From: Paracoccaceae bacterium
GTDB lineage: Bacteria; Pseudomonadota; Alphaproteobacteria; Rhodobacterales; Rhodobacteraceae
Direction of reading: 5' to 3'
DNA: 64,000 nt
Assembly: GCA_027489375.1 (NCBI GenBank)
Contig: JAIXZW010000003.1
Coordinates: 124,001-188,000, forward strand
A program made the translations under genes and the position numbers. Of this stretch, positions 6,072 through 29,835 are shown piece after piece. The notes under the pieces are model-generated. The model was given only the letters and a program-made list of their open reading frames with translations. It was not told the DNA's origin and made no database searches. Numbering within the stretch: position 1 is the stretch's first letter; each line of letters opens with the position of its first letter.

Positions 6072-6241
6072 CCGGCTTTGTTCTGCTCTTGCGGACTGCT
6101 CATACCGAAAGGCAGGAGGCAGTTCAAACCCAACTCTGCGTGACCATCGGCAATGGGCGGCGCAGTGACGGGTGTTTGATTTGCCCAAGGCAGGTGAAAG
6201 CGTTAAGGGAATGGCAAATCAGAAACCAAAGGGGCAAGCAG

Positions 6242-6841: not shown

Positions 6842-6864
6842 CTACAAGGCTTTGAACAGAAGAT

Positions 6865-6890
6865 GGAATGCTTGCTGCAAGTTGCATTCC
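6865..6890 (+). terminator. Hairpin downstream of the L,D-transpeptidase gene (possible terminator or leader structure)
   Basis: GGAATGC...GCATTCC inverted repeat followed by CCCCCCTTT; no strong T-tract. Confidence 0.45.
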
Positions 6891-6987
6891 CCCCCTTTAG
6901 CTGTTTAAGAGAAATCACGAGGAATAATCTTGGGTGCGTGACGTCGCCTCTGCAACAACGGCGTCATGCGAAATCTGGAGGTCTATT

Positions 6988-7167
6988 ATGAAGAAACTCG
7001 CGCTCGTCGCCGCTCTGTCGCTTGCTGCTACCTCGGCTTTCGCCGGCGGCATGGCTGAACCGGTCACGGAAGAAGCTGTTGTGGCTGCTGACACCTCTTC
7101 GTCGGCTGGCGGCATCGTTGTTCCGCTGCTGCTCCTCCTGGTCGTCGCGGCTGCTGCCTCGAACTGA
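6988..7167 (+). CDS. small (59 aa) secreted/membrane protein of unknown function
   Basis: MKKLALVAALSLAATSAFAGG signal peptide, hydrophobic C-terminus VVPLLLLLVVAAAASN; RBS ggagg upstream; terminator downstream. Confidence 0.75.
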   Translation: MKKLALVAALSLAATSAFAGGMAEPVTEEAVVAADTSSSAGGIVVPLLLLLVVAAAASN

Positions 7168-7186
7168 TCTCGGATCATTCAGGAAA

Positions 7187-7223
7187 GGGTCGGCGGGCGC
7201 TGCTCGCCGGCCCTTTTCTTTTG
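7187..7223 (+). terminator. Rho-independent terminator
   Basis: GGGTCGGCG...CGCCGGCCC stem followed by TTTTCTTTT. Confidence 0.75.
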
Positions 7224-7303
7224 TCTGACGCCATAGGCGAAACAGGCGCCATGCTCCCGCAGGCGGGGGGGCGTTGAAGCGACGAACGGTTATTGGCGGA
7301 GTA

Positions 7304-8398
7304 TTAGCGGAGCCAGCCTGTCAGGTTGTCTTCGATCACGGCCGACAGTGCGGCGATGTGGGCATCGTCGTCGTTCAGGCAGGGTATATAGGTGAACGAT
7401 TCGCCCCCTGCGTGTTCAAACGCTTCGCGAATCTCGCCGTTGATTTCTTCCAGCGTCTCGATGCAGTCGGCCGAAAAGGCGGGGGCGATGACGGCGATGC
7501 GCTTCTTGCCCTGTTTCGCAAGCTCGGCCACGTGTTCCACGGTGTAGGGTTTCAGCCATTCTTCCGGGCCGAAGACGGATTGGAAGGTCGTGTCGATCGC
7601 GCCCTTTTCCCAGCCCAGCCGCTCCCGCAAGAGGCGCGAGGTTTTCTGGCACTGGCAGTGGTAGGGGTCGCCCTCCATCAGATAACGCTGCGGCATGCCG
7701 TGGTATGAGGCGACGAGGACGTCGGGCTTTTCCGCAAGCCCCGCATAGGCGCGTTCGACGGATTGGGCGAGCGCCTCGATATACAGCGGGTGGTCGAAGT
7801 ATTCGGCCACGGTGCGCACGGCGGGTTGGCGCTTTTCCTTCATCAGGGCGCGGAAGAACTGGTCATTCGCGGTGGCCGAGGTGGCACCGGCGTAATGGGG
7901 GTAGAGCGGGAAGAAGAGGATTTTCTCGCAGCCCGCTTCGACCATCGCGCGGACTTTCGAATCCGTCGATGGGTTGCCGTAGCGCATGCAGAAATCGACC
8001 ATCACGCCATCGCCATGCTTGGCTTTCAGCGTCTCTGCGATCTTGCGGGTCTGGTCTTTGGTGATGGTCAGCAGCGGGCTTTCGTTCTTTTCGTGGTTCC
8101 AGATCAGCTTGTAATTCGCACCCGACGAAAAGGGGCGCTTGGACAGGATCACGAGTTGCAGAAGCGGTTGCCAGATCCACGCGGAATAGTCGACGACGCG
8201 CTTGTCGGACAGGAATTCGTTGAGGTAGCGGCGCATCGACCAGTAGTCGTAATTGTCCGGCGTGCCGAGGTTGGCGACAAGGACGCCGATCTTTGCCTGC
8301 CGGACCGGCGGGTGGGAGGCGGGCGCATGGGCAAGGCGGCCGGTGCCGGGGGTAACGACGCCGTCGGTCGTTCCGGTCATGGGCTTGGCGTCGAGCAT
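7304..8398 (-). CDS. hemH: ferrochelatase
   Basis: KIGVLVANLGTPDNYDYWSMRRYLNEFLSDKRVVD; VASYHGMPQRY; QSVFGPEEWLKPYT. Confidence 0.95.
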   Translation of the reverse strand: MLDAKPMTGTTDGVVTPGTGRLAHAPASHPPVRQAKIGVLVANLGTPDNYDYWSMRRYLNEFLSDKRVVDYSAWIWQPLLQLVILSKRPFSSGANYKLIWNHEKNESPLLTITKDQTRKIAETLKAKHGDGVMVDFCMRYGNPSTDSKVRAMVEAGCEKILFFPLYPHYAGATSATANDQFFRALMKEKRQPAVRTVAEYFDHPLYIEALAQSVERAYAGLAEKPDVLVASYHGMPQRYLMEGDPYHCQCQKTSRLLRERLGWEKGAIDTTFQSVFGPEEWLKPYTVEHVAELAKQGKKRIAVIAPAFSADCIETLEEINGEIREAFEHAGGESFTYIPCLNDDDAHIAALSAVIEDNLTGWLR

Positions 8399-8452
8399 GG
8401 TCGCGTCCTTCGATAGGTCAACGTGCGGGACATATAGGCTTATTCGGCGGGG

Positions 8453-9280
8453 TCAACCTTTGGGCGGTTGGTCGCGGAGCGGGAGTTCGGCGGTATTCAG
8501 GGCGTCGGCCAATCTTTGGGCGGCGGAACCGGGGCGGAGCGGCTTTTGCTGGCTTTCGTGGGGTGCCCAGCCGGTGAGGCAGATGATCTCGAACGTTGCC
8601 GGAATGCGGCCATCGGGGCGGGTGTGGTGTTCGGCGTAAAGCGCTGCGGCGCGGGCAAAGACGGCGCGGCGGGTGGGGCGGCGGAGGCGGGCGTGCAGGG
8701 CGTTGCCTTCGCCCATCGCCCGCAGGTCGCGCATCAGCGCCAGTGCATCTGGGTAAGTGACTGTTTTCGTGAAGCTATCCGCCACGGGAAGGTTGAAGCC
8801 CGCCCGTTGCAGAAGGCCGCCAAGATCGCGGATTTCAGCCATCGGCAGGATGCGGGGGGAGAGGCCGCCCGTCACCTCGGCCTCGGCCTGGGCGAGGCAG
8901 GCGCGGAGTTCGTGCAAGGTCTGGCCGCCGAAGAGGAAACCGAGGAACAGGCCGTCGGGCCGCAGGGCGCGGCGGCATTGCACGAGTTGGCCGACCGGAT
9001 CGTTAGACCAGTGCATGCACAGGGCATGCACAACGAGGTCATACGAATCCGGCGAAAGGTGAAGAAAATCTTCATCTTCGACCGTTTGCGCGAAACCCGA
9101 CCAGAGCTGCGGAAAGGGTGTCACCACCACGGGGGCTGTAAAGGTTCTGTTAACCTCGGCCAGACGATCCTGCGTTTCGGCGGCGACCTCGTCTTGCAGG
9201 AACAGCGCGGGCGCACGCAGGGCGCGGGCGCGGTTGCGGGCAAGGGCGGGGCGGTCGGTCAGGATCGGCGGTGTCTGCAT
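8453..9280 (-). CDS. SAM-dependent methyltransferase (BioC-like)
   Basis: YDLVVHALCMHWSNDPVGQLVQCRRALRPDGLFLGFLFGGQTLHELR pattern. Confidence 0.8.
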   Translation of the reverse strand: MQTPPILTDRPALARNRARALRAPALFLQDEVAAETQDRLAEVNRTFTAPVVVTPFPQLWSGFAQTVEDEDFLHLSPDSYDLVVHALCMHWSNDPVGQLVQCRRALRPDGLFLGFLFGGQTLHELRACLAQAEAEVTGGLSPRILPMAEIRDLGGLLQRAGFNLPVADSFTKTVTYPDALALMRDLRAMGEGNALHARLRRPTRRAVFARAAALYAEHHTRPDGRIPATFEIICLTGWAPHESQQKPLRPGSAAQRLADALNTAELPLRDQPPKG

Positions 9281-9303
9281 GGGCGGGACCATAGGAGGCG
9301 GGA

Positions 9304-10020
9304 ATGGGAATGCAAGCCGTGCTGCGACTGGTCTACCCGCCGCAATGCGTGGCCTGTGGCGAGGCGGTGGACAGCGACTTTGGCCTGTGCGGTCCGTGCT
9401 GGCGCGAGACGGGGTTCATCACGGGGCTGGTTTGCGATCTGTGCGGGGTGCCCTTGCCGGGTGAGGGCGAGGGTGCGGAGTGTGACGACTGCATCGCGCT
9501 GGGCCGTCCTTGGGCGCAGGGGCGGGCGGCGTTTCTGTATCGGGATGTCGGGCGCAAGCTGGTGCTGGGGTTGAAACATGCCGACCGGATCGAGCTTGCG
9601 CGGCCTGCGGGGGAATGGCTGCTGCGGGCGGCGCGGCCGATCCTGCGCGAGGGGATGGTGGTTGCCCCCGTTCCGCTGCATTGGCGGCGGCTGTTCCGGC
9701 GGCGGTATAACCAGTCTGCGCTTCTGTCGGCGCGGCTGGCGGCTTTGGCGGGGTTGGCGCATTGCCCCGATCTTTTGCAGCGGGTGCGGGCGACCGGAAC
9801 GCAGGACGGGCGCGACAGGGCGGGACGGTTCGGCAACCTGACGGGGGCGATGCGGGTTCATCCCAGACGGGCGCAGGTGCTGAAGGGGGCGCATGTGCTG
9901 CTGGTGGATGATGTGATGACGAGCGGGGCCACCCTGACCGCCTGTGCCGAGGCCTGTCTTGCAACAGGCGCAAGGCGGGTATCGGTTGCGGTGTTGGCCC
10001 GCGTTGCGAAGGATGCCTAA
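9304..10020 (+). CDS. ComF family phosphoribosyltransferase-like protein
   Basis: N-terminal CxxC clusters (CVACGE, CGPCW, CDLCG, CDDC) and PRPP motif VLLVDDVMTSGATL. Confidence 0.9.
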   Translation: MGMQAVLRLVYPPQCVACGEAVDSDFGLCGPCWRETGFITGLVCDLCGVPLPGEGEGAECDDCIALGRPWAQGRAAFLYRDVGRKLVLGLKHADRIELARPAGEWLLRAARPILREGMVVAPVPLHWRRLFRRRYNQSALLSARLAALAGLAHCPDLLQRVRATGTQDGRDRAGRFGNLTGAMRVHPRRAQVLKGAHVLLVDDVMTSGATLTACAEACLATGARRVSVAVLARVAKDA

Positions 10021-10049
10021 ATCCTTATAGTTCGCTGCAACTGCAAAGG

Positions 10050-10316
10050 ATGCCGACCATGACAGCCGTGGAAATCTATACGACGCCGCTCTGCGGCTAT
10101 TGCCACGCCGCCAAGCGCCTGCTTGGGAAAAAGGGCGTGGAGTTCACCGAGATCGACGTGAGCACCGACAATGCCCTGCGCGCCAAGATGATGGAGCGGG
10201 CAGGCGGGCGGCGGACCGTGCCGCAAATCTTTATCGGCGGTAAGCACGTTGGCGGCTGTGACGACCTGCACGCGCTTGAGGCGGACGGGAAGCTTGATCC
10301 GATGTTGGCGGGCTGA
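10050..10316 (+). CDS. grxC: glutaredoxin 3
   Basis: VEIYTTPLCGYCHAAKRLL...GGRRTVPQIFIGGKHVGGCDDL. Confidence 0.95.
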   Translation: MPTMTAVEIYTTPLCGYCHAAKRLLGKKGVEFTEIDVSTDNALRAKMMERAGGRRTVPQIFIGGKHVGGCDDLHALEADGKLDPMLAG

Positions 10317-11146
10317 TGCGGGCGGGTCTGGTCCAGCTTACCGTGACGGATGATCCGGCGGCGAACCTGCCGGAGACGGTGGCGCTTGTGCGGGCTGCCG
10401 TGGCGGGGGGTGCGGGTTTCGTGCTGACGCCGGAATGCACCAACGCCCTGTCGTCGAACCGCGCCAAGCAGCGCGAGGTTTTGCGGTTCGAGGGCGATGA
10501 TCCCACGCTTGCCGCCCTGCGGGACGAGGCGGCGCGGGCGGGCGTCTGGATGCTGATCGGATCGCTGGGTGTGCTGACCGATGACGCGGACGGGCGCTTT
10601 GCGAACCGCTCGTTCCTGATCGGGCCGGACGGGGGGATCGTGGCGCGCTATGACAAGATCCACATGTTCGACGTGAACGTGTCGGAGACCGAGGTTTACC
10701 GCGAGTCGTCGGGTTACAGGCCGGGGGCGCGGGCGGTGATGGCGGATACCCCGTTCGGGCGGGTGGGAATGACGGTCTGTTATGACGTGCGCTTCCCGCA
10801 TCTTTACCGCCGTCTGGCGCAGGCGGGGGCCGAGATCATCACGGTTCCGGCGGCGTTCAACCACATCACGGGTGCTGCGCATTGGGAAGTGCTGCTGCGG
10901 GCGCGGGCGATCGAGACGGGGTGCTACGTGTTGGCCCCCGCGCAGACGGGCTTTCACCCCGAAGCGGGTGGCAAGGGGCGGCGGACGCATGGGCATAGCC
11001 TTGTGATCGCGCCCTGGGGCGAGGTTTTGTCGGATGCGGGCGTGGAGCCGGGCGTGACATTCGCCGACCTCGATCTGGCCGAGGTGGCCAAGGCGCGGGA
11101 CCGCGTGCCATCGCTTTCGCATGACAGGGCGTTTGAGGGACCATGA
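10316..11146 (+). CDS. carbon-nitrogen hydrolase (nitrilase family)
   Basis: TPECTNAL, ARYDKIHMFDV, MTVCYDVRFP catalytic-triad motifs. Confidence 0.92.
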   Translation: MRAGLVQLTVTDDPAANLPETVALVRAAVAGGAGFVLTPECTNALSSNRAKQREVLRFEGDDPTLAALRDEAARAGVWMLIGSLGVLTDDADGRFANRSFLIGPDGGIVARYDKIHMFDVNVSETEVYRESSGYRPGARAVMADTPFGRVGMTVCYDVRFPHLYRRLAQAGAEIITVPAAFNHITGAAHWEVLLRARAIETGCYVLAPAQTGFHPEAGGKGRRTHGHSLVIAPWGEVLSDAGVEPGVTFADLDLAEVAKARDRVPSLSHDRAFEGP

Positions 11147-11583
11147 GCGAGCGGAACGAGGATATCGCGGTTGCGTTGTTCGGTGAGCTGTTCATGGCGG
11201 ACCAGCTTGCCCGCAACCGCATATCCAAGGTGCTGCCCAAGGGGATGGAATTGTCGCATTTCGGCGTGCTGAACCATCTGGCGCGGGTCGGGGACGAACG
11301 GACTCCGGCGCAATTGGCGCGGGCCTTCCATGTGACGCGGGGGGCGATGACGAACACCCTGTCGCGGCTGGAATGGGCAGGGCATGTGCATATCCGCCCC
11401 GATTGGGACGATGCGCGGCGGAAGTTCGTGGCGATTTCCCCCGCAGGCCGTGCCGCGCGGGATGCGGCGGTGCAGGCGGTGGCGCCGTTGATCGCCGAGG
11501 TGGTCGCGGCCTTGGGTGCGGACCGCGTGCGGGCGCTGATCCCCGTGCTGCGCGAGATGCGCACGCGGCTGGAAGACGAATGA
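11143..11583 (+). CDS. MarR family transcriptional regulator
   Basis: LSHFGVLNHLARVGDERTPAQLARAFHVTRGAMTNTLSRLEWAGHVHIRPDWDDARRKFVAIS. Confidence 0.88.
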   Translation: MSERNEDIAVALFGELFMADQLARNRISKVLPKGMELSHFGVLNHLARVGDERTPAQLARAFHVTRGAMTNTLSRLEWAGHVHIRPDWDDARRKFVAISPAGRAARDAAVQAVAPLIAEVVAALGADRVRALIPVLREMRTRLEDE

Positions 11584-12410
11584 AGATCCGCTGGGGAATC
11601 CTTGGCGAGTTGTGGACGCTGAGCGACGAGCGCGAGCTTGACTTGATTGCTGCGGGGATTGCCTTTTACGGCTTCGTGGCGCTGTTCCCTTCGGTCGCCG
11701 CCGTCATTGCGATCTGGAGCTTCTTTGCCGATGCCGGTGTGATCCGCGAGGAGCTGGAGCTGGCGCGGGCCTATCTGCCGCAGGATGCGTGGTCGTTGAT
11801 TGCCGAGCAGATTGAATCGCTGCTGTCGTTGCGGACGGACAATCTGACCATCGCGACGATCCTGTCGCTTTTGTTGGCGCTGTGGACGACGCGGGCGGCG
11901 GTGGCGGCGTTGATGCGGGGGCTGAACGCGATTTACGGTTTGCCGAACCGGGCGGGGCATTGGCACCAGTTGCGGGCGATGGTGTTGACATTCGTGATGA
12001 TCGGTCTGGTCATCTGCGGGATGCTGGCGGCGGTGGTGGGGCCGCTGCTGTTGTCCTTTGTGCCCTTGGGGCGGTTTGCGTCACTGGGGTTGGAGGTGGT
12101 GAACCTTGGCCTGAGCCTGCTGCTGGTCGTGGTGGGTGTGGCGCTGATGTATCGGCTGGGGCTGAACCGGAACATCCACCATCGGCTGTTCACGCGGGGG
12201 ATTTTCGTGGCCGTGGTGATCTGGGTCGCGGCGTCGCGGGGGTTCGTGCTCTATCTGGCGAATTTCGACACGTATAACCGGATTTACGGGTCGATCGGGG
12301 CGGTGGTGGCGTTGCTGATGTGGCTCTATTTCAGCGGATACGCCATTTTGCTGGGCGCTGCGGTCGATGCGGCGCGGGCGGAGCGCAAGCGGTTGAAGGG
12401 CGCTCAGTAA
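11580..12410 (+). CDS. YihY/BrkB family inner membrane protein
   Basis: LIAAGIAFYGFVALFPSVAAVIAIW; multiple TM segments; ATGA overlap with the MarR gene. Confidence 0.88.
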   Translation: MKIRWGILGELWTLSDERELDLIAAGIAFYGFVALFPSVAAVIAIWSFFADAGVIREELELARAYLPQDAWSLIAEQIESLLSLRTDNLTIATILSLLLALWTTRAAVAALMRGLNAIYGLPNRAGHWHQLRAMVLTFVMIGLVICGMLAAVVGPLLLSFVPLGRFASLGLEVVNLGLSLLLVVVGVALMYRLGLNRNIHHRLFTRGIFVAVVIWVAASRGFVLYLANFDTYNRIYGSIGAVVALLMWLYFSGYAILLGAAVDAARAERKRLKGAQ

Positions 12411-15400
12411 TCCTTTTCCCAGAAGAGGCCGATGCCGGTGTTGCCGGTGCTGCCCGCCGAGCCGCGGAGCGTCAGGCTTTTGGTCACGTCGAGGTTCAGG
12501 TTGATCTGGCTTTGGCCGTCCTGTCCCACTTCCACCTCGGTATAGAGGTTCTTGGCGATGTATTTGCCCAAGGTGAGGCTGGCCGCGCCGGAAGCGTCGG
12601 TCTGCACGTCGAGGTCGTCGAGGCCGAAGCCCTGCCGCAGCCGGTCGATCACGCCTGCGCCGCCGCGTCCGGCAAGGGTGGCAACCGCGTTGGCAAGCTG
12701 GGCGGCCTGAAGCGGGGAGAGGTTTTCGAGGCCGCGTCCGAAGAGGAGGCGGGAGAGGACTTCCTCTTGCGGGAGTTCGGGGGTGGAGGTGAAGGTGACG
12801 TCGGGCGCGGTGGCGGGGCCGTCGATGCGGACGAAGCTGGTGATGCCTTCGCTTTCGGTGGAGGCGGCGATGGCGACGGTGGGGATGAAATCGCCTTCGA
12901 GCAGGAGTGTCGCTTCGGACAGGATCAGGCGGCGGCCGAGGATGTCGAGGCGGCCGCGGATGAGCTGGAACGATCCGGCGGGTTGCACGGCAGCGGTCGT
13001 GCCGCGGAGGGTGAGGCTGCCGCCCAGTTCGGCGTCGAGGCCACGGCCGCGGAGGAAGACCTGCGACGGGGCGCTGATGGTGAGGTTCAGGTTGAGCGGG
13101 CGGGTCTGCGGGCCGGAGCCGCCGGATGCGGAGCCGAGGAAACCGGCGCGGTCGCGGGTGGCGCGGACGGCGGCGGGTTCGAAGCGGTGGGCAAGGTCGG
13201 GCAGGCCTGCGGCATTGCCGAGGCCGGTAGAGGGGATTTGCAGCTCGGTCTGGCCAAGGTCGATGCGTCCGGCGACGAGGCCGCCTGCGATGAGCGGTCC
13301 GGTGAGGGTGAGCGTGCCGTTGGCGGTGGTCTGGAACAGGCGCGGGTCGCGGAGGATGGCGTTTTGCAATGCGATGCGCAGGTCTGCGGTATAGGGCGCG
13401 GCGAGGGAGATTGAGCCGCTGGCCTGCACCTGCCCGCCGCTGGAGAGGCGGGTGGAGGCGGTGAGGTTGGCGCGGCTGCCGGACATGTCGGCGTTCAGCG
13501 TGACCCCTTCGAACCCGAAGGCGAGGCGCGGGTCGGCGATGCGGCCACCCGACAGCGAGACGCGGCCTGTCAGCGAGGGCAGGGCGAGCGGGCCGTTCAG
13601 GTCGAGGTCGAAGCGGACGGGGCCGGAAAGGACCCGGCCCGACAGGAAGGGCGAGAGGAGGCCCGCTTGCAGGCTGCCCGCGATGTCGAGGTTGGCGGAG
13701 GCGAAATCCCGCGTCAAGCGGCCCGCGACGGTGGCGTCGATCTGGCCGGGGCCACGGGTGCGCAGGTTCAGGTCATAGCCCGTGCCATCGTCGGTGGCGG
13801 TGCCTTCGACGCTGACGGGGCCGGGGAATTCGGGAAGGAAGAGGCCGAGGTTGGCAAGGCGGGCGGTAAGGTCGATGTCGCGCCGCGAGTCCGTTGCCGT
13901 GCCCGTGGCGCTGGCGGTGAGTTGCGGGTTGGTCAGGCGGGCAGCGTTTAGGGTGACGCGGCCCTTGGTCAGGCCGAGGTCGAGGGCAAGCGCGGTCGTA
14001 CCTGAAAGCAGGCGGTCGGCCTGCGCCTGGCCGATGCCAAGGTTTTGGCCTGTGGCGTCGAGCGTGATGCGGCCCGCTTCGGTCATGCCGCTGAAGCCGA
14101 GGTCGCCCGAAAGGCTGCCCTGCCATGCAGGGTCGAGTGCGGCGAGGTCGGAGAGGGTGACACGCGCCTTCAGGTCCGCGCCGTCGTTGCTGGCGGTTCC
14201 GGTGGCATCCGCCGTGAGTGCGCCCGTGCGGATTTGCAGGGAGCGGAGTTCGGTCTTGGCCGTGTCGCGCTTGGCGCTGGCGCTTATGGTGGAGGCGCCG
14301 CGCAGCAGGCGGTCGAGGTGCGGTTGCGACAGGGTGATATCGCGCCCGCCAAGGCTGGCGGTCAGGTCGAAGTCGCCCGCAAGCGGGCTGCCCATCCCCT
14401 CGACATGGAGGAGTGCCGCGCCGGAGAAGGGGCGGCCTGCGAGGGCGGTGAGGCGCGAGAGGTCTTGCAGGGTTGCGTCGGCTTGGCCGGAGATGCGGAA
14501 GGCATCGTCCAACCCTTCGATCTGGCCGGAGGCGGTGAGGGTGTAGTCCTTTCCCCTGATGGTCAGGCGGCGGAGGTCGAGGCCATTGGCCGCTTGGGTC
14601 GCGTGAAGGTCGGCGGTGCCGGATATTGCGGGGCCGAGTGCCGTGGCCAAGGCGGGGTTGGCGGGGGCCAGCCCTTCGGTTGCGAAGCGGAAGGCGGCGT
14701 CGAAGCTGTCGGCGGTGTCGCCGTGGGTGATCGTGCCGGAGCCGTTCAGGATCAGGCGGTCGGCGGAGAGGCCTGCGCGCTCCAGCCCCTGCACATCGAC
14801 CAGCGCGCGCCAGCCCGTGCCGAGGGCGGCGTTGTAGCCGAGCGAAAGGTTGGCGGCGGTGATGCGCGTGTCGGTCGCGCCGAGGGGGAGGAGGACGGGG
14901 GAGCCGTCGGGAAGCCCGATCTCGCCCTGCACATTCAGGCGGAGGGGGACATAATCGGGGGCGAGTTCGACCGCGCCCGCAAGGTGGATGGCCTGTGACG
15001 TGAGGTCGAAGGCTTGCAGGTCGAGCGTGCCGTCGGCGCGGGATTCGCCGCGTGCCGTCAGCGCGATCCGGTTGCCGAAGAAGGCGGCGTATTGCGGAAG
15101 GAACAGGGGGGCGAGGTCGCCGCGCAGGTCGGCATCGAAGCCGCGCCCGCCGTTTTCCGTTCCGTTCAGGGTGACGCGGCCTGCCAGACGGTCCTGCCCG
15201 TCGGAGCGCAGGGCGATGTCGGCGGCGAAGGCGTCGAGCGGGCCTGTGCCGTTGATGCTGAGTTCGGTCGCGGGGGAACCGGGGAGGCCGAGTTTGCGCA
15301 CGGCGATGCCGCCTGCATCCTCGGCTGCGGTGAGGTTCAGGGTGAGGGTCCGGGTTTCGTTGGAGAAGGCGGCGTCGAGCGAGAGTTTGCCCGCAGGGCC

Positions 15401-19199: not shown

Positions 19200-19332
19200 C
19201 CGTTTCGGATGCACGCCTAGCTTCGCGCATCATTTTTATTTTGACAACTGAAATTATTCGCGCCACTTTCCCCGCGTGCCGACGAATCTGTCGGACCGGC
19301 CATGTGCTGGCCGCATCCATGGGAGGATAACA
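19200..19332 (+). promoter_or_regulatory. putative xyl promoter/operator region
   Basis: Intergenic AT-rich segment between ROK regulator and xylF containing TTGACA at about 19240 and an imperfect GCGCATCATTTTTA...AAATTATTCGCGC inverted repeat. Confidence 0.4.
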
Positions 19333-20358
19333 ATGCATAAGGTATTTCTCGCCGCCGTCGTCGCGGTGGCCGGTTTCTCGTCGGCTGCTCTGGCCGAAGG
19401 CAAGAAGATCGGCGTGAGCTGGGCGCAGTTCCAGGAAGAGCGCTGGAAGATCGACGAAGCGGCCATGAAGGCTGCAATCGAAGCGGCTGGCAACGAATAC
19501 GTCTCGGCGGACGCGCAGTCGTCGGCTGAAAAGCAGCTTTCGGACATCGACGCGCTGATCAGCCAAGGCGTTGACGCCCTGATCATCAACGCCTGGGACA
19601 AGGACGCCATCGGGCCGGCCATCGAAAAGGCCGCTGCCGAAGGGATTCCGGTCGTCGGCTATGACCGTCTGATCGAAGACAACCGCACCTTCTATCTGAC
19701 CTTCGACAACGTGGGCGTCGGCCGCATCATTGCGGAATCGGTGTTCGCTGTCGCGCCGAAGGGCAACTACGCGATCATCAAGGGCGACCCGGGCGACCCG
19801 AACGTCGGCTTCCTGCGTCAGGGCATGGAAGAAGTGATCGGCGCTGCCGTGGCTTCGGGCGACATCAAGATCGTCGGCGAAGCGAACTCGGACGGCTGGA
19901 AGCCCGAGAACGCCCAGAAGAACATGGAACAGATCCTGACCGCCAACAACAACGCGGTCGATGCGGTTCTGGCCCAGAACGACGGTATGGCCGGTGGCGC
20001 TGCCGCCGCGCTGGCCGCGCAAGGCCTGAACGTTCCGCTGGGTGGTCAGGACGGCGACCTTGCCGCGATCAACCGTGTGGCCCGCGGCACCCAGACCGTT
20101 TCGGTGTGGAAGGATGCGCGTCAACTCGGCAAGGCTGCGGGCGAGATCGCCTCGGCTCTGGCTGACGGCACGGCTCTGGACGCCATCGAAGGCGCGACCA
20201 AGTTCTCGGGCGGCGAGAAGGGCGTTGAAATGAACGCGATCCTTCTGACGCCGACCGCGATCACCAAGGACACCGTGAACCTTGCGATCGACGCTGGCCA
20301 CATCACCAAGGAAGCCGCTTGCGAAGGCGCGGTTGCCGGCGTGAAGGGCTGCGAATAA
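19333..20358 (+). CDS. xylF: D-xylose ABC transporter substrate-binding protein
   Basis: Signal peptide; IGVSWAQFQEERWKIDEAAMKAAIEAAGNEYVSADAQSSAEKQLSDIDALISQGVDALIINAWD. Confidence 0.93.
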   Translation: MHKVFLAAVVAVAGFSSAALAEGKKIGVSWAQFQEERWKIDEAAMKAAIEAAGNEYVSADAQSSAEKQLSDIDALISQGVDALIINAWDKDAIGPAIEKAAAEGIPVVGYDRLIEDNRTFYLTFDNVGVGRIIAESVFAVAPKGNYAIIKGDPGDPNVGFLRQGMEEVIGAAVASGDIKIVGEANSDGWKPENAQKNMEQILTANNNAVDAVLAQNDGMAGGAAAALAAQGLNVPLGGQDGDLAAINRVARGTQTVSVWKDARQLGKAAGEIASALADGTALDAIEGATKFSGGEKGVEMNAILLTPTAITKDTVNLAIDAGHITKEAACEGAVAGVKGCE

Positions 20359-20372
20359 TCGCGTGACGACGG

Positions 20373-20407
20373 GGCGCCGGTTCGAAGGGACCGGCGCCTT
20401 CTTTTTC
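20373..20407 (+). terminator. Intercistronic terminator/attenuator between xylF and xylH
   Basis: GGCGCCGGT-TCGAAGGG-ACCGGCGCC followed by TTCTTTTTCC. Confidence 0.7.
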
Positions 20408-20508
20408 CTGACGGGCCAGTGCGCTGGCCGATGCGTCCTTTACGGTTCTGCCTGCCGCTCCGCCTTGACGGACCCGCGGGAGCCGCCCCTTAGCATCATG
20501 GACGAGAC

Positions 20509-21828
20509 ATGACCGAGACAACCCATCAACCCCAAGTCCAAGAAAAGGCCGAGGGTCCGATTGCCCGCTTCCTGCGTGCGACAGAGCTTGACCCGCGATT
20601 GATCGGCATGGTCGGCGCGCTTCTGCTGATCTGGGTGGGTTTCCACCTTTATGGCGCGCTGTTCCTTGGTGACGGATCGTTCCTGACGCCGCGGAACCTG
20701 TGGAACCTGTCGGTCCAGACGGCGAGCATCGGGATCATGGCGACGGGCATGGTGCTGGTGATCATCACCCGCAACATCGACCTGTCGGTGGGTTCCATCG
20801 TCGGCGTGACCGGCATGTATATGGGCCTGTTGCAGGTCGAATGGCTGCCGCAATTCCTTGGGCTGGGCCATCCGATGATCTGGGTGGTCACGGTGATCTT
20901 CGGTCTGGCGCTGGGCGCGCTGATCGGGGCGTTGCAGGGCGGCATGATCGCCTATCTGAGCATTCCTTCGTTCATCGTCACGCTGGGCGGGTTGCTGGTG
21001 TGGCGCGGGGTGGCGTTCCTTGCGGCGGACGGGCGGACGATTTCGCCGGTCGATACGACATTCGCGCTGCTCGGCGGCGGACCGTATGGGTCGATCGGGG
21101 CGACGGGGAGCTGGATCATCGGGGCCATCGCCTGCGCGGGCGTGATCTGGCTGGTGATGAACGGCCGCAAGAACCGCCGTCTGCATGGTTTCCCGCTGCG
21201 TCCGATGTGGGCCGAGGTGTTCATGGGCGTGCTGGGCTGCGGCATCATCGTGATCGCCACGCTGATCGTGAATTCCTATCCGTGGCCGAAGGGCATCCTG
21301 AAGGATTACTACGCCGCGCAGGGCATGGAGGTGCCGGAGGGCGTGTTCATCGCGCATGGCTATGCCTATCCGGTGCTGATCCTTGCCGTGGTTGCCATCC
21401 TGATGACGGTGCTGATGACGCGGACGCGGTTCGGGCGCTATGTCTTTGCCATCGGGGGCAATCCTGAAGCCGCCGCGCTGTCGGGGATCAACACCCGCGC
21501 CATGACGGTGAAGATCTTCACGCTGATGGGCGCGCTGGCGGGGCTGGCGGGGGTCATCGCCTCGGCCCGTCTGAACAGTGCCACGAACGCGCTGGGGGAT
21601 CTGGACGAACTTTACGTGATCGCCTCGGCGGTCGTGGGGGGCACATCGCTGGCTGGGGGCGTCGGCACGATCTATGGCGCGATCATCGGGGCGCTGGTGC
21701 TGGTGTCGTTGCAGACCGGCATGGTCCTGATCGGCTTCGGCGACGGGTCCTACCGCAAGATCGTGATCGGCGCGGCGCTCGTGCTCGCCGTCTACCTCGA
21801 CATCGTTTACCGCAAGCGCATCAAATAA
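20509..21828 (+). CDS. xylH: sugar (xylose) ABC transporter permease
   Basis: GMVLVIITRNIDLSVGSIVGVTGMYMG; IGGNPEAAALSGINT; position between xylF and xylG. Confidence 0.93.
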   Translation: MTETTHQPQVQEKAEGPIARFLRATELDPRLIGMVGALLLIWVGFHLYGALFLGDGSFLTPRNLWNLSVQTASIGIMATGMVLVIITRNIDLSVGSIVGVTGMYMGLLQVEWLPQFLGLGHPMIWVVTVIFGLALGALIGALQGGMIAYLSIPSFIVTLGGLLVWRGVAFLAADGRTISPVDTTFALLGGGPYGSIGATGSWIIGAIACAGVIWLVMNGRKNRRLHGFPLRPMWAEVFMGVLGCGIIVIATLIVNSYPWPKGILKDYYAAQGMEVPEGVFIAHGYAYPVLILAVVAILMTVLMTRTRFGRYVFAIGGNPEAAALSGINTRAMTVKIFTLMGALAGLAGVIASARLNSATNALGDLDELYVIASAVVGGTSLAGGVGTIYGAIIGALVLVSLQTGMVLIGFGDGSYRKIVIGAALVLAVYLDIVYRKRIK

Positions 21829-21840
21829 GGGGGACTGAAC

Positions 21841-22602
21841 ATGAGCACCAATCGCGGAACACCCCTTGTCGAAATGCGCGACATCTCGATTTCCTTCGGG
21901 GGGATCAAGGCGGTCGACCATGTGACGGTCGATCTGTATCCCGGCGAGGTCGTGGGGTTGCTGGGCCATAACGGCGCGGGCAAGTCGACGCTGATCAAAT
22001 GCCTTTCGGGCGCCTATCAGGCGGATGCGGGCGAAATCCGCATCAACGGGGAGAAGGTCGAGATCGCCAGCCCCCGCGATGCGCGGGCGCTGAACATCGA
22101 GACGATCTACCAGACGCTGGCGCTGGCCGATAACCTCGATGCCGCGTCGAACCTGTTTCTGGGGCGCGAGATCGTGAACAGCTTCGGTTTCGTGGACGAG
22201 ACGAAGATGGAGGCCGAGACGCGCAAGATCATGGCGCGCCTGAACCCCAACTTCCGCAAGTTCAACGTGCCGGTATCGGCGCTTTCGGGCGGTCAGCGGC
22301 AGTCGGTCGCGATTGCGCGGGCGGTCTATTTCAACGCCAAGATCCTGATCATGGACGAACCGACCGCCGCACTTGGCCCGCACGAGACGCAGATGGTGGC
22401 CGAGCTGATCGAAGAATTGAAAAAGCAGGGACTTGGCATTTTTCTTATCGAACACGACATTCACAACGTGATGAAGTTGTGCGATAGGGCAAGTGTGATG
22501 AAGAACGGCCAGCTTGTCGGCACGGTCAATGTGAACGAAGTGACCGATGACGACATTCTGGGCATGATCATCATGGGCAAGAAACCTGCAAAGGCTGCAT
22601 GA
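21841..22602 (+). CDS. xylG: sugar (xylose) ABC transporter ATP-binding protein, single-cassette type
   Basis: Walker [42 protein letters not shown]; 253 aa. Confidence 0.9.
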
Positions 22603-24038
22603 TGTATATCGGTCTTGATCTTGGCACCTCCGGCTTGAAGGGGGTGCTGATCGACGATGCGCAGACCGTTCTTGCCGAAGCTTCCGCACCCCTGACGGTG
22701 CAGCGCCCTGCCGAGGGGCATAGCGAGCAACTCCCCGCCGACTGGATCGCCGCCGCCGAGGTGGTGATGGAGGCTTTGGCCGCGCATGGGCTTGGGTCCG
22801 TGCGCGGGATCGGGCTGTCGGGGCATATGCACGGGGCGACGCTGCTGGATGCGGCGGACGAGGTGTTGCGGCCCTGCATCCTGTGGAACGACACGCGCAG
22901 CCATGAAGAGGCGGCGGAGCTGGATGGCGATCCGCAATTCCGGCGGATCACCGGCAACATCGTCTTTCCGGGGTTCACCGCGCCGAAGCTGGTCTGGGTG
23001 CGGCGGCACGAGCCGCGCATCTGGGAGCGTGTGGCCAAGGTGCTGCTGCCCAAGGATTATCTGCGGCTCTGGCTGACGGGCGAGCATGTGGCCGAGATGT
23101 CGGATGCGGCGGGGACGAGCTGGCTTGATACCGGAAAGCGCGACTGGTCGGATGACTGTCTGGCGGCGACGGGACTGAGCCGCGCGCAGATGCCGCGTCT
23201 GGTCGAGGGGTCGCAGGTTTCGGGATCGTTGCGCGATGCGCTGGCGAGCCGCTGGGGTTTGCCCAAGGGTGTGGTCGTGGCCGGTGGCGGCGGCGACAAT
23301 GCCGCGTCGGGCGTGGGGGTCGGCGTGGTGCGGGCGGGGGATGCGTTCGTGTCGCTTGGCACCAGCGGCGTGCTGTTTGCGGCGAATGACGGCTATCAGC
23401 CCGCGCCGGAGACGGCGGTTCATACCTTCTGCCATGCGCTGCCCGACACGTGGCACCAGATGGGTGTGATCTTGGCCGCGACCGATGCGCTGAACTGGTA
23501 TGCCGGTCTGGTGGGCGAGACGGCGGCAAAGCTGACGGGCGGTCTGGGTGCGTTGCAGGCACCGGGGAAGGCGGCGTTCCTGCCCTATCTGGGGGGAGAG
23601 CGGACACCGTTGAACGATGCGGCGATCCGTGGCGCGTTCCTTGGGCTGGAGCATGCGACGGACCGCGCTGCCGGAACGCGGGCGGTGCTGGAGGGCGTGA
23701 CCTTTGCCATCCGCGACAGCCGCGATGCGCTGGCCGCGACGGGGACCAAGCTCGAGCGGCTTCTTGCCGTGGGTGGCGGGTCGCGGTCGGAGTATTGGCT
23801 GGCCGCGATTGCGACCGCGCTGGATATTCCCGTGCATCTGCCCGTGGCGGGCGATTTCGGCGGGGCTTTCGGTGCCGCGAGGCTTGGCCTTATGGCGGCG
23901 ACGGGGGCGGGGGCCGAGATTGCCTCGCTGCCGCCGATTGCGCGGACGATCGAGCCTGTGCGTTCCCTGACTGCGGCCTTTGACGCGGGCCATGCCCGTT
24001 ACCGTGCCGCGCAAACAGCTATCCGAGGGTGGAAATGA
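22599..24038 (+). CDS. xylB: xylulokinase
   Basis: [54 protein letters not shown]. Confidence 0.95.
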
Positions 24039-25336
24039 CCGACTTTTTCAAAGGTATCCCGCAGATCAAATACGAGGGGCCGTCCTCGACCAACGAATTC
24101 GCCTTCCGGCATTACAATCCGGACGAGGTGATCATGGGCAAGCGGATGGAGGACCATCTGCGCTTTGCCGTGGCCTATTGGCACAGCTTTGCGTGGCCGG
24201 GGGGCGACCCGTTCGGCGGGCAGACATTCGAGCGTCCGTGGTTCGGCGAGACGATGGCGCTTGCGAAGATGAAGGCCGATGTGGCGTTCGAGATGTTCGA
24301 TATCCTGAACGCGCCCTTCTACTGCTTCCACGATGCGGATGCGCGGCCCGAGGGCAAGACCTTTGCCGAGAGCAAGCGCAACCTTGAGGAAATCGTCGAT
24401 TACCTTGGCGAAAAGCAGGCGAGCCACAAGACGCAGCTTCTGTGGGGCACGGCCAACATGTTCAGCCACCGGCGCTGGATGTCGGGGGCTGCCACGAACC
24501 CCGATCCGGATGTTTACGCCTATGCCGCGGCGACGGTGAAGGCGAACATGGATGCCACGCACAAGCTGAACGGGGCGAACTATGTCCTGTGGGGCGGGCG
24601 CGAGGGGTATGAAACGCTGCTCAACACCGACCTGAAGGCCGAGCGCGAACATGCGGGGCGGTTCCTGCAACAGGTGGTCGAGTACAAGCACAAGATCGGG
24701 TTCAAGGGGACGATCCTGATCGAGCCGAAGCCGCAAGAACCGAGCAAGCACCAGTATGATTACGACGTGGCGACGGTTTACGGCTTCCTTGTGCAGTTCG
24801 GGCTTGAGAAAGAGGTCAAGCTGAACATCGAACAGGGCCATGCCATTCTGGCGGGGCATAGCTTCGAGCATGAAATCGCGCTGGCCAATGCGCTGGGCAT
24901 CTTTGGTTCGATCGACATGAACCGCAACGATTACCAGACGGGCTGGGATACCGACCAATTCCCGAACAACCACGCCGAGAAGGCGGTGGCTTTCTACGAA
25001 ATCCTGCGGGCCGGCGGGTATACGACGGGCGGCACGAACTTTGACTCAAAGGTGCGGCGTCAGTCGCTTGACCCCGAAGACCTGATCCTTGCCCATGTCG
25101 GCGGGATGGACGTTTGCGCGCGGGCGCTGAAATCGGCGGCGGCGCTGATGGAGGATGGCGCGATGGAGCGGGCGCGGGCCGAGCGTTACGCCGGTTGGGA
25201 GAAGGCGGATGCCAAGGCGCTTCTGGCTGGCAGCCTTGAAGATGCGGCGGCGGTGGTGACGGCCAAGGGGCTGAACCCCGAGCCGCGTTCGGGCCGTCAG
25301 GAGCGGCTGGAAAACCTGTGGAACCGCTTCGTCTGA
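24035..25336 (+). CDS. xylA: xylose isomerase
   Basis: [27 protein letters not shown]-type [36 protein letters not shown]. Confidence 0.97.
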
Positions 25337-25408
25337 TCTGATGAAGTGCTACGGCAAAGGGGCGGCGGCGCATCGGCTTCGCCGCCTCCTGTCATGAAGG
25401 AGGATGCG

Positions 25409-26437
25409 ATGACCTATACTCCCGCCGCCGACCGTTATTCGAAGATGGTCTACCGCCGTTGCGGCAAGACGGGGCTGCAACTGCCCGCCATCAGCCTTGG
25501 GCTGTGGCACAACTTTGGCCACGACACGCCGCATCAGGTGAAGCGCGACATTTGCCGGACGGCGTTCGACCTTGGCATTACGCATTTCGACCTTGCCAAC
25601 AACTACGGACCGCCGCCCGGAAGTGCCGAGGAGGCGTTCGGGGATATCCTGAAAACCGATTTCGCGGGGTATCGGGACGAGCTGATCATTTCGTCCAAGG
25701 CCGGATACAACATGTGGGACGGCCCTTATGGCGAATGGGGAAGCCGGAAGTATCTGATCGCGTCCTGCGACCAGAGCCTGAAGCGGATGGGGCTGGAGTA
25801 TGTGGATATCTTCTATTCCCACCGTTTCGACCCCGATACGCCGCTGGAAGAGACGATGATGGCGCTGGACCATATCGTGCGGTCGGGACGGGCGCTGTAT
25901 GTGGGGATTTCAAGCTACAACAGCCAGCGCACGCGCGAGGCCCATGCGATCCTGAAAGAGCTTGGCACGCCGCTGGTCATTCACCAGCCGAGCTACAACA
26001 TCCTGAACCGCTGGGTGGAGCATGACGGGCTGAAGGACACGCTGGCCGAGCTTGGCGTGGGGTCCATCGCCTTTACGCCGCTGGCGCAGGGGATTTTGAC
26101 GAAGAAATACCTGAACGGCATTCCGCAAGGCAGCCGTGCGGCGCAGGGCAAGAGCCTTGACCCCGCGACGATCACGGACAGCGCGATTGCTTCGGTCAAG
26201 GCGCTGGACGCGCTTGCTTCCAGCCGCGGGCAGACATTGGCGCAGATGGCGCTTGCCTGGGTGTTGCGCAATGGCGGGATCACGACGGCGCTGATCGGGG
26301 CGTCGAAACCCGAACAGGTGGTGGATTGCGCAGGGGCGATCGGCAACCTCGACTTCACGGCGGCGGAACTGGCCGAGATCGACAGGATCTCTGGTGAAGA
26401 GGACATCAACCTATGGGCGAAATCGTCCGCCGAGTGA
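25409..26437 (+). CDS. aldo/keto reductase (YghZ/L-glyceraldehyde 3-phosphate reductase-like)
   Basis: MVYRRCGKTGLQLPAISLGLWHNFG; FDLANNYGPPPGSAEEAFG; YVDIFYSHRFDPDTPLEETM. Confidence 0.9.
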   Translation: MTYTPAADRYSKMVYRRCGKTGLQLPAISLGLWHNFGHDTPHQVKRDICRTAFDLGITHFDLANNYGPPPGSAEEAFGDILKTDFAGYRDELIISSKAGYNMWDGPYGEWGSRKYLIASCDQSLKRMGLEYVDIFYSHRFDPDTPLEETMMALDHIVRSGRALYVGISSYNSQRTREAHAILKELGTPLVIHQPSYNILNRWVEHDGLKDTLAELGVGSIAFTPLAQGILTKKYLNGIPQGSRAAQGKSLDPATITDSAIASVKALDALASSRGQTLAQMALAWVLRNGGITTALIGASKPEQVVDCAGAIGNLDFTAAELAEIDRISGEEDINLWAKSSAE

Positions 26438-26629: not shown

Positions 26630-27541
26630 ATGACGACGGGTATTTCCTCATCTTCTATGGTTCGTCTGGTCCTTGTTTCCACCGGACCGGCGGCACCTCT
26701 TGCGGCGGAAACGCTGTGCCAGCACCTGAGCATCACGAAAGAAACCGCGCTGGAACGGCTGGGGGCCGCGCCTTCGGTTCTGGTCGAGGGGATCGACGAC
26801 GAAACGGCGCGCAAGATCGCTACGCTGCTCCGGTCCTTTGGATTGCGGGTCCGGATCGACGGCCCTTCGGAAGGGGCCAATCCTTGCGACCTGTCGATCC
26901 AGATCGCGGTGCCGGTGCGGGTCCAGCGGACGATCCGCCAGATTGCCGCTGAAACGGGGCTGGACGTGGGCCATGTTGCGGAAAGCGTGCAGCGACCGGG
27001 GGGTCTTGTGTTGCCAGCGCTGCCGCCGGACGAGGTGCTGCGTTTGCAGCAGGTGCTTGGGCGCAACAGCAGCCTTGTCCTGTCCGCTTCGGACCCTGCG
27101 AGCGCGGTCTATGACATCTTTCTTCCCGACGGGATGACCGACCCCGCGCTGGCAGAGCGGTTTCGCTTGCTTGGTGCCGAGGCCGACCCGATCACCGGCG
27201 CGGTGGCCGCCGGACTTGACCGTGCGATCTGTGCGCATCTGGTCGCACGTTTCCCCGATGCGGGGATGACCGTGATCGACCGTGCCTTCCAGCGTTACGA
27301 TCTTTATCTGACGCGCGTGACGGGATGGGTGACGCGCGATCTGGCCGATTTCCTTGCGGCGCGGACGGGTCTTCCCCGCAGCCGGTTCGAGGTGGTTGCA
27401 GAGAACATGCCGCTGCGGATCGAGCTTGGCCTGACCCATGCGGCGGCACGGCAGTTCCGTGCCGATTACGCGAGCATCGGCATGCATACGCTTATGCTGC
27501 TGAGCGGCCTTTCGCGGAATTCCGACAATCCGAACCTTTAA
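26630..27541 (+). CDS. hypothetical protein with internal ~60-70 aa repeats, next to motB
   Basis: 303-aa ORF upstream of and co-directional with motB; repeat structure seen by eye (see findings). Confidence 0.75.
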   Translation: MTTGISSSSMVRLVLVSTGPAAPLAAETLCQHLSITKETALERLGAAPSVLVEGIDDETARKIATLLRSFGLRVRIDGPSEGANPCDLSIQIAVPVRVQRTIRQIAAETGLDVGHVAESVQRPGGLVLPALPPDEVLRLQQVLGRNSSLVLSASDPASAVYDIFLPDGMTDPALAERFRLLGAEADPITGAVAAGLDRAICAHLVARFPDAGMTVIDRAFQRYDLYLTRVTGWVTRDLADFLAARTGLPRSRFEVVAENMPLRIELGLTHAAARQFRADYASIGMHTLMLLSGLSRNSDNPNL

Positions 27542-27552
27542 CCGGCGCTTCA
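27538..27552. promoter_or_regulatory. CtrA-like motif upstream of motB
   Basis: TTAA-CCGGCGC-TTCA (one mismatch to TTAA-N7-TTAA). Confidence 0.35.
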
Positions 27553-27601
27553 CGCATTTGCCGCAAACTGGCTGCGGGTGTGTGAATTTTCGGGGTGAAC
27601 G

Positions 27602-28432
27602 ATGGCCGCGCAGGGCAATGCCGCGCCGGTTATCATCAAGCGTAAGAAAGTCATTGCCGGTGGCGGTCATCATGGCGGGGCCTGGAAGGTCGCCTATGCT
27701 GACTTCGTCACGGCGATGATGGCCTTTTTCATGCTGATGTGGCTGTTGAACGCGACGACGGAAAAGCAAAGGAAGGGGATCGCGGATTACTTCAATCCGA
27801 CGATCCCGGTAAACCGCATCTCGGGCGGCGGGGATGGCAGTTTCGGTGGGGATTCCGTCCTGTCGGAGCAGACCTTGGCGCAGAACGGGACGGGGGCTTC
27901 GGCCACGGCCCCTGCCGAGGAAATGAAGGCGAGGGGAGAGAACGGCCCGCAGGAATCGGCGGAGGCCCAAGCCTTGGCGGAGGTTGAGAAAGCCCTTACG
28001 GCGCGCACGGGCGAAAGCATGACGATGGAGCGCCTGATGCGACATGTCGTGACGCGGGTGACGGACGAAGGGCTGGTGATCGAGCTTTTCGATGTCGAGG
28101 ATCAGGCGCTGTTCCTGCCCGACTCGGCCATGCCGGACCATATCCTGAACGAGATCGCGACCGTTCTGGTCGAGGTGATGACCCTTGCCACCAACGAGGT
28201 TGCGGTGAACGGCTACGTGCGCAGCTATCCTTTGCCGATGATCGAAAACCCGTCGTGGAAGCTGTCGGCAGAGCGGGCCCAGACGATGCGGGGGTTGCTG
28301 GAAAAGGCGGGGCTGGATGCAGCAAGGCTTCAGCGCGTCACCGGATTTGCCGACCGAAAGCCGGTGGCGGCGAACCCGCAGGCGATCCGTAACAACCGGC
28401 TGGAGGTGATCCTGCTGCGCCGTAACCGGTGA
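27602..28432 (+). CDS. motB: flagellar motor protein MotB
   Basis: GGAWKVAYADFVTAMMAFFMLMWLLNAT N-terminus; C-terminal OmpA-like NPQAIRNNRLEVILLR. Confidence 0.95.
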   Translation: MAAQGNAAPVIIKRKKVIAGGGHHGGAWKVAYADFVTAMMAFFMLMWLLNATTEKQRKGIADYFNPTIPVNRISGGGDGSFGGDSVLSEQTLAQNGTGASATAPAEEMKARGENGPQESAEAQALAEVEKALTARTGESMTMERLMRHVVTRVTDEGLVIELFDVEDQALFLPDSAMPDHILNEIATVLVEVMTLATNEVAVNGYVRSYPLPMIENPSWKLSAERAQTMRGLLEKAGLDAARLQRVTGFADRKPVAANPQAIRNNRLEVILLRRNR

Positions 28433-28452
28433 AATAGAGCGAATTGTCGATA

Positions 28453-28467
28453 TTAGGCGGCTGTTAA
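28453..28467. promoter_or_regulatory. CtrA-like motif upstream of flgE
   Basis: TTAG-GCGGCTG-TTAA. Confidence 0.45.
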
Positions 28468-28527
28468 CGTGAAAGGGGCAAGGATCGGCCAGACCCAGAA
28501 GGGCAGGGCTACAGAAGGGCGCCTTAC

Positions 28528-29835
28528 ATGTCGATTTCATCCTCGCTCAATGCCGGTGTTGCCGGACTCAATGCCAATGCGACGCGGCTTGCAGCCATTT
28601 CCGACAACATCGCAAACTCGGGTACCTACGGGTACAAACGGGCCTCGGCGGATTTCGAGAGCATGGTCATCACCTCGGCCCGCGGGTCGGGGACCTATTC
28701 GGCGGGCGGGGTGCGGGCGTCCACAACGAGGCTGATCGAAGAGCGGGGGGCGCTGGTCGGCACGGCCAATTCGCTGGACATCGCCGTGTCGGGGCGGGGG
28801 ATGCTGCCGGTGATTCCGGCGGTGTCGATGGGGTCGGATTTTTCGGACCAACCCTTGGTGATGACGACGACAGGGGCGTTCCGCACCGATGCGAACGGGG
28901 TGTTGAAAACCGAATCCGGGCTGGTGCTGCTGGGTTGGCCCGCCAATGCCGACGGGTCGATCCCCGTCAATGCGCGCGATACGATCCAGGGGCTGGAGCC
29001 TGTGGTGATCAACGCCAACCAGACGGCCGGCGACCCGACGACGGTGATGGGCCTGGGCGTGAACCTGCCCGCCGTGCAGACCGAAGCGGGGGCGAGCGGT
29101 GGTGCGCTGCCGCTGTCGGTCGAATACTTCGGCAACCTCGGCACGTCCGAGACGCTGGATATCACCTTTACCCCGCAGGTTCCGGCAACGGGCGCTTCGA
29201 ACACGTGGAACATGGTGATCCGCGATTCCGCGCAAGGCGGGGCGAAGATCGGGGAGTATACGCTGGTCTTCGACGACAGCCGCGGCAATGGCGGGACGCT
29301 TGCCTCGGTCACGACCGTGGCGGGGGGAAGCTATGACGCGGCGGCGGGGACCCTGGCGCTGACGGTTCAGGGCGGGCCGATGACGGTAACGATCGGGCGT
29401 CTGGGCGATCCGAACGGGCTGACGCAGCTTTCGGACAGTTTCGCGCCCGTGGCGATCACCAAGGACGGCTCTCCGGTCGGCAACCTGACAGCGGTGGAGG
29501 TGGACGAGAACGGGTTCGTCACCGCCAGCTATGACACGGGTTTCATCCGGCGGATCTATCAGATCCCCTTGGTCGATGTGCCGAACCAGAACGGGCTGCG
29601 GACCATGTCGAACCAGACCTATCAGGTGTCGCCGCAATCGGGGAATTTCTTCCTGTGGGATGCCGGCACGGGGCCGACGGGCAAGGTGGTCGGCTATGCG
29701 CGCGAGGGGTCGACGACCGATGTGGCGGCGGAACTGACCGCGCTGATCCAGACGCAGCGGGCCTATTCCTCGAACGCCAAGGTGATCCAGACGGTGGACG
29801 AGATGTTGCAGGAAACCACGAACATCAAGCGGTGA
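28528..29835 (+). CDS. flgE: flagellar hook protein FlgE
   Basis: MSISSSLNAGVAGLNANATRLAAISDNIANSGTYGYKRASADF; C-terminal SSNAKVIQTVDEMLQETTNIKR. Confidence 0.94.
   Translation: MSISSSLNAGVAGLNANATRLAAISDNIANSGTYGYKRASADFESMVITSARGSGTYSAGGVRASTTRLIEERGALVGTANSLDIAVSGRGMLPVIPAVSMGSDFSDQPLVMTTTGAFRTDANGVLKTESGLVLLGWPANADGSIPVNARDTIQGLEPVVINANQTAGDPTTVMGLGVNLPAVQTEAGASGGALPLSVEYFGNLGTSETLDITFTPQVPATGASNTWNMVIRDSAQGGAKIGEYTLVFDDSRGNGGTLASVTTVAGGSYDAAAGTLALTVQGGPMTVTIGRLGDPNGLTQLSDSFAPVAITKDGSPVGNLTAVEVDENGFVTASYDTGFIRRIYQIPLVDVPNQNGLRTMSNQTYQVSPQSGNFFLWDAGTGPTGKVVGYAREGSTTDVAAELTALIQTQRAYSSNAKVIQTVDEMLQETTNIKR

Follow-up and report, generated by a model that had tools for sequence, protein, structure and literature searches.

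Tandem modules resembling the ribosomal L7/L12 C-terminal domain in a predicted protein encoded beside motB in some Rhodobacteraceae

Results

The window analyzed here is a 64,000-nucleotide stretch of a contig (JAIXZW010000003.1) from a Paracoccaceae bacterium. On its forward strand, an open reading frame at positions 26630 to 27541 encodes a protein of 303 amino acids (32.4 kDa, pI 5.8) which consists of four consecutive modules; the coordinates and translation were as given in a preliminary description of this DNA. The gene, the predicted fold, the repeats, the synteny, and the accessory status reported below were all computed. No signal peptide or transmembrane segment was apparent in the 303-amino-acid protein (the highest 19-residue Kyte-Doolittle mean was 1.35), and the same 19-residue scan revealed no strongly hydrophobic stretch along the chain. 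From its sequence, we infer that the protein is soluble and cytoplasmic.

Homologues were found in 16 of the 18 other genomes of the same genus, with 37 to 71% identity, and named records carrying a homologue include Gemmobacter straminiformis, Rhodobacter ruber, Rhodobacter amnigenus, and Tabrizicola sp. TH137. Compared with the Gemmobacter straminiformis copy, the window gene showed a dN of 0.24 and a dS of 1.01, thereby indicating that it is under purifying selection. In the same comparison, motB showed a dN of 0.07 and a dS of 0.57, so that the dN/dS ratio was approximately 0.24 for the four-repeat gene versus approximately 0.12 for motB. The four-repeat gene is a real, conserved gene and evolves faster than motB. 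A 630-amino-acid antisense reading frame (26648 to 28540) was dismissed as a mechanical open reading frame in high-GC DNA.

The start of motB (27602 to 28432, forward strand), a linked neighbor outside the protein itself, is located 60 bases downstream of the four-repeat reading frame on the same strand. Beyond motB are the hook protein gene flgE (28528 to 29835, forward strand), flgK, flgL, and flgI. On the upstream side is an aldo/keto-reductase gene, the last gene of a xylose uptake and catabolism cluster (window positions 19276 to 26437). The genes of this cluster presumably encode a sugar ABC transporter, a xylulokinase, and a xylose isomerase, as judged from their sequences. The xylose and flagellar clusters are contiguous throughout the genus of the window but not in the other genera examined.

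In the window's genus, motB and then flgE directly followed the four-repeat gene in every homologue. The motB-flgE pair was also directly downstream in seven other genera (L033 to L037, L111, and L112), in which the upstream xylose genes were absent and the protein was only about 30 to 40% identical. Thus, the adjacency to motB outlasts the sequence. In an eighth genus (G068), a CHAT-domain gene and a TPR gene are located between the four-repeat gene and motB (L074 positions 8504 to 11724), and the CHAT-domain protein was recognized with an E value of 3.6e-56. The linkage of the four-repeat gene to flagellar genes is conserved within the lineages that carry the gene.

A CtrA-box-like promoter element, TTAA-N7-TTCAC, precedes motB at positions 27538 to 27553 (forward strand), and the TAA stop codon of the four-repeat gene is inside its first half-site. 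Comparable sequences are found before motB elsewhere, with TTAA-N7-TTCA(C) or TTAA-N7-TTAA in most of the family genomes examined. The motB element agrees with the full CtrA site of Caulobacter, as given in a paper that also lists motB2 of Rhodobacter sphaeroides among the predicted CtrA targets (PMC6180460). Because motB has its own promoter-like element, its cotranscription with the four-repeat gene is not implied. In six other genera, a tandem pair of TTGAC/TTCAC/TTAAC-type sequences with CtrA-box spacing was observed approximately 80 bases before the start codon of the four-repeat gene, and the pair was perfect in L037. However, a scan with a motB-promoter matrix detected no CtrA-like site above chance upstream of the window's own gene. 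The upstream sequences therefore suggest CtrA control of the four-repeat gene in some genera, and such control is unsupported in the window.

Next, we examined the distribution of the gene. A limited number of candidates was scored per genome and the genus counts are thus lower bounds: the four-repeat gene was present in at least 7 of the 248 sampled Rhodobacteraceae genera, and the tally of genera with any match was at least 10 of 248, including two with only the five-repeat protein described below and one spurious case (G101). The spurious match (L041, E value of 5e-4), which was discarded, is inside a 1,043-amino-acid frame belonging to an efflux-pump-like gene. Outside the family, there was no four-repeat gene among the matches scored, and only the window's own genome matched among 289 genomes of the class. 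The motB gene itself was present in 52 of 61 family genomes. Within the genus, 17 members had both genes, one had motB only, and one had neither; the four-repeat gene was found in no genome that lacked motB. In the member with motB only (G014, same genus; L117 positions 1378 to 1501), the reductase gene and motB are separated by an empty interval of about 120 bases, and both motB and flgE are kept. A family-profile scan detected no hidden homologue upstream of motB in the genomes without the gene. Most genera with motB do not have the four-repeat gene, which is thus not universal in fla1-type clusters. The absence in G014 and the patchy distribution among genera indicate that the gene is accessory and is not required for the motor. 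These results show that the four-repeat gene is accessory and does not encode a core component. Linkage to motB across Rhodobacterales, which had been raised beforehand, is real yet lineage-restricted: the adjacency holds where the gene is present, but the gene itself is patchy.

The protein had been proposed to belong to no named family, and Pfam, NCBIfam, and PHROGs indeed gave no assignment. The window protein gave no match to Pfam Ribosomal_L12 (PF00542), whose gathering cutoff was not reached, and the best family member showed an E value of 0.0018 (one member). An assignment to PreAtp-grasp (E value of 0.023, below its cutoff, in one member only) was rejected. A plain sequence search against solved structures gave only chance matches, so a profile search was needed to see the likeness to L7/L12. 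When a profile of 16 homologues was compared with the Protein Data Bank, all of the best matches were L7/L12 chains, although weak; 1ctf was matched at an E value of 0.36 over positions 8 to 76.

An AlphaFold2 model of the four-repeat protein, built with 14 sequences, had a pLDDT of 83 and a pTM of 0.66. Four similar segments had been delimited by eye at residues 11 to 77, 87 to 155, 161 to 218, and 223 to 291, and the boundaries in the model agreed: repeat 1 covers residues ~10 to 79 (26657 to 26866), repeat 2 residues ~84 to 155 (26879 to 27094), repeat 3 residues ~158 to 218 (27101 to 27283), and repeat 4 residues ~219 to 292 (27284 to 27505), all on the forward strand. In the model, repeats 1, 2, and 4 showed the element order strand-helix-helix-strand-helix-strand, which is that of the L7/L12 C-terminal domain (CTD). 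In a Foldseek search, which reports the best local match only and does not state the repeat used, the top match to the whole model was the L7/L12 CTD structure 1ctf (E value of 1.2e-3, probability of 1.00), with a TM score of 0.85 by target length and 1.5 Å over 67 columns. Further L7/L12 entries and then ClpS ranked under 1ctf, and a few low-probability spliceosome matches were interleaved in the ranking. The ClpS matches had probabilities of about 1.00 and TM scores of 0.54 to 0.73 by target length. Both folds had been named for comparison in the preliminary description. In addition, phage L7/L12-like proteins were matched in a viral structure library.

Repeat 3 differed from the other modules. 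It is degenerate, with a short strand in place of the second helix, and when modeled alone (pLDDT of 88) it had the order beta-alpha-beta-beta-alpha-beta, which is ferredoxin-like. The isolated repeat gave no significant structural match, and several L7/L12 chains were among the weak ones; its candidate identity as a fourth L7/L12 module was not borne out. The expected L7/L12-CTD layout in every segment thus held for repeats 1, 2, and 4 but not for repeat 3. According to the models, it would be more exact to describe the protein as "three plus one," with repeats 1, 2, and 4 as L7/L12-CTD-like modules and repeat 3 as a derived module.

The relatedness of the segments was investigated by profile-profile comparison with hhalign against 60 column-shuffled controls. 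The scores were 36.6 for repeats 1 and 2 (control maximum, 15.8; z of 12.9), 26.9 for repeats 1 and 4 (control maximum, 14.0; z of 9.5), and 20.8 for repeat 1 and L7/L12 (control maximum, 11.5; z of 8.6). The last alignment was ungapped over 67 columns, and repeat 1 was the segment closest to L7/L12, as had been judged by eye; repeat 4 aligned to the L7/L12 profile with one gap. Repeats 1 and 3 scored 14.5 (control maximum, 13.5; z of 3.1), and repeats 2 and 4 were barely above the controls (15.6 versus a maximum of 15.5; z of 2.9). The pairs repeat 3-repeat 4, repeat 3-L12, and repeat 4-L12 were marginal (z of ~3). Against the same controls, there was no sequence signal between repeats 2 and 3 (z of 0.3), and the z was 1.0 for repeat 2 and L12. 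The self-alignment that had been expected was therefore far over the shuffled controls for repeat 1 with repeats 2 and 4, but was lacking between repeats 2 and 3. Repeat 4 was the most conserved module, with a mean of 2.64 bits versus 1.76 to 2.05 in the other repeats, and its positions invariant across 16 homologues are Q221, R222, D240, F241, L242, R245, F253, F276, D279, Y280, and G284.

The family search also found proteins of 373 to 377 amino acids with a fifth module. Modules 1 to 4 of this paralogue corresponded to repeats 1 to 4 with z values of 35.7, 23.9, 23.6, and 11.5, respectively, and its modules 1 and 4 matched L7/L12 with z values of 10.4 and 6.1. The five-repeat gene heads a conserved nonflagellar operon in three Rhodobacteraceae genera (L072 646 to 7691, reverse strand; L073 6925 to 14192, forward strand; L123 ~6044 to 13269, forward strand). 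The other products of the operon are a TPR protein, one protein bearing an OmpA-type domain, three mutual paralogues, and two uncharacterized proteins; Pfam and NCBIfam gave no family among the operon's products except OmpA and TPR. The three paralogous proteins have an AIAxAQxxLDxNS-like stretch near the N terminus and a YSAEGxS...PxPxxLExRI-like C terminus. The presence of the paralogue in a nonflagellar operon indicates that the repeat architecture need not go together with flagella.

It could be argued that the likeness reflects general alpha/beta topology only and that the four segments are unrelated by duplication. The ferredoxin-like fold of repeat 3 alone, without a significant match, and the missing signal between repeats 2 and 3 are consistent with this explanation. 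However, the three strongest comparisons of repeat 1 are 8 to 13 standard deviations over shuffled columns, and the five-repeat paralogue matches L7/L12 independently. We consider this explanation very improbable, and for repeats 1, 2, and 4 it is largely refuted.

Discussion

The fold of the L7/L12 CTD and ClpS serves as a small protein-docking module. A probably cytoplasmic chain of docking modules, the adjacency to motB, and the conservation of repeat 4 are together best interpreted as features of an adaptor or scaffold. We give nearly even chances to the proposal that the four-repeat protein, whose gene accompanies the flagellar motor genes, is an accessory component specific to its lineage, with its four tandem modules acting as an adaptor or scaffold in the cytoplasm. 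Here the docking fold would be repeated within one chain, and the adaptor or scaffold would tune the flagellar motor. Repeat 4 would probably be the main contact and would dock a conserved cytoplasmic motor partner, which may be the cytoplasmic part of the stator, the switch complex, or an export component. Repeats 1 to 3 may contribute reach, dimerization, or a second contact. The cytoplasmic location, the binding of a partner, and an effect on motility are what we infer for the protein, as is the role of a binding module in flagellar or motor assembly that had been suggested beforehand.

The main rival to the adaptor proposal is that the gene is a passenger, which was kept beside motB by an inherited synteny block and has a role unrelated to motility. 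Its patchy distribution, its clean loss in one genus member that kept motB, the separate promoter element of motB, the paralogue in a nonflagellar operon, and its faster evolution than motB would all be consistent with such a passenger. However, the upstream neighbors vary by genus and motB stays adjacent, and the gene was not found without motB, as the cooccurrence counts within the genus illustrate. We regard this explanation as rather unlikely. It is less probable still that the protein is a ClpS-style regulator or proteolysis adaptor, which would control the stability or activity of a bound flagellar regulator or export substrate. ClpS was the second structural match, and the gene is at the head of the motB-flgE cluster. 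The N-degron pocket of ClpS is marked by Asn-Asp-Asp and a later His, but this motif was seen by eye in no repeat, and no Clp gene was seen nearby.

A translation-linked role, in which the protein would recruit elongation factors like the ribosomal stalk, agrees with the L7/L12-like fold but is hardly probable at all. The L7/L12 residues contacting elongation factors, namely K65, V66, I69, K70, R73, and K84, correspond to A, P, A, E, C, and L in the ungapped alignment of repeat 1, and this lack of conservation argues against a role in translation. In addition, the chain begins with repeat 1 and has no L7/L12 N-terminal dimerization and L10-binding domain or hinge, and conservation is highest in repeat 4 rather than in repeat 1, which is nearest to L7/L12.

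Together with the paralogue, the adaptor proposal can be extended, more tentatively, to an undescribed family in which four or five tandem L7/L12-CTD-like modules would form a multivalent docking scaffold. One branch of the family may have been recruited as a motor accessory in Rhodobacteraceae flagella, and the other may serve the operon of TPR and OmpA-domain proteins. In the ribosomal stalk, the L7/L12 CTD is known to occur singly. If the proposal is true, the fold has a further use, as a repeat scaffold in a setting other than translation. The four-repeat protein would then join the increasing number of accessory motor proteins as a lineage-specific candidate, and genera that carry it are culturable. 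The genome of G014, which lost the gene, is a natural built-in comparison.

The fold is known, and the repeat architecture and flagellar setting appear to be undescribed in the searchable literature. Among open-licence papers, whose silence is not proof of absence, no account of a flagellar protein with L12-like repeats was found, in line with the earlier view that no flagellar component of such architecture had been described. The protein resembles the CTD of bL12 in element order, in its superposition on 1ctf, and in the ungapped alignment of repeat 1. In contrast to bL12, it has four modules per chain without the N-terminal domain and hinge, is below the Pfam cutoff, does not keep the elongation factor contact residues in repeat 1, and is encoded with flagellar genes. 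ClpS, which ranked below L7/L12, is probably similar in fold, whereas the modules here are repeated and lack, by eye, the degron-pocket motif and a visible Clp neighbor. In a 2025 study of Rhodobacterales flagellar clusters, four uncharacterized proteins, CP1 to CP4, are universal in clusters of the fla1 type, and Phaeobacter inhibens requires them for motility; motB is listed there as cluster gene 01, and we saw no account of a gene preceding it (PMC12363192). CP1 to CP4 share with the four-repeat protein the status of uncharacterized products of this kind of flagellar cluster, but they are universal and essential, whereas the four-repeat gene is patchy and is absent in a genus member that has both motB and flgE. 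Fla2 rotation in Cereibacter sphaeroides depends on MotK and MotE, which are periplasmic, unlike the four-repeat protein, which has no apparent export signal; the likeness is that MotK and MotE are accessory to the stator and associated with its protein MotB (PMC10954123).
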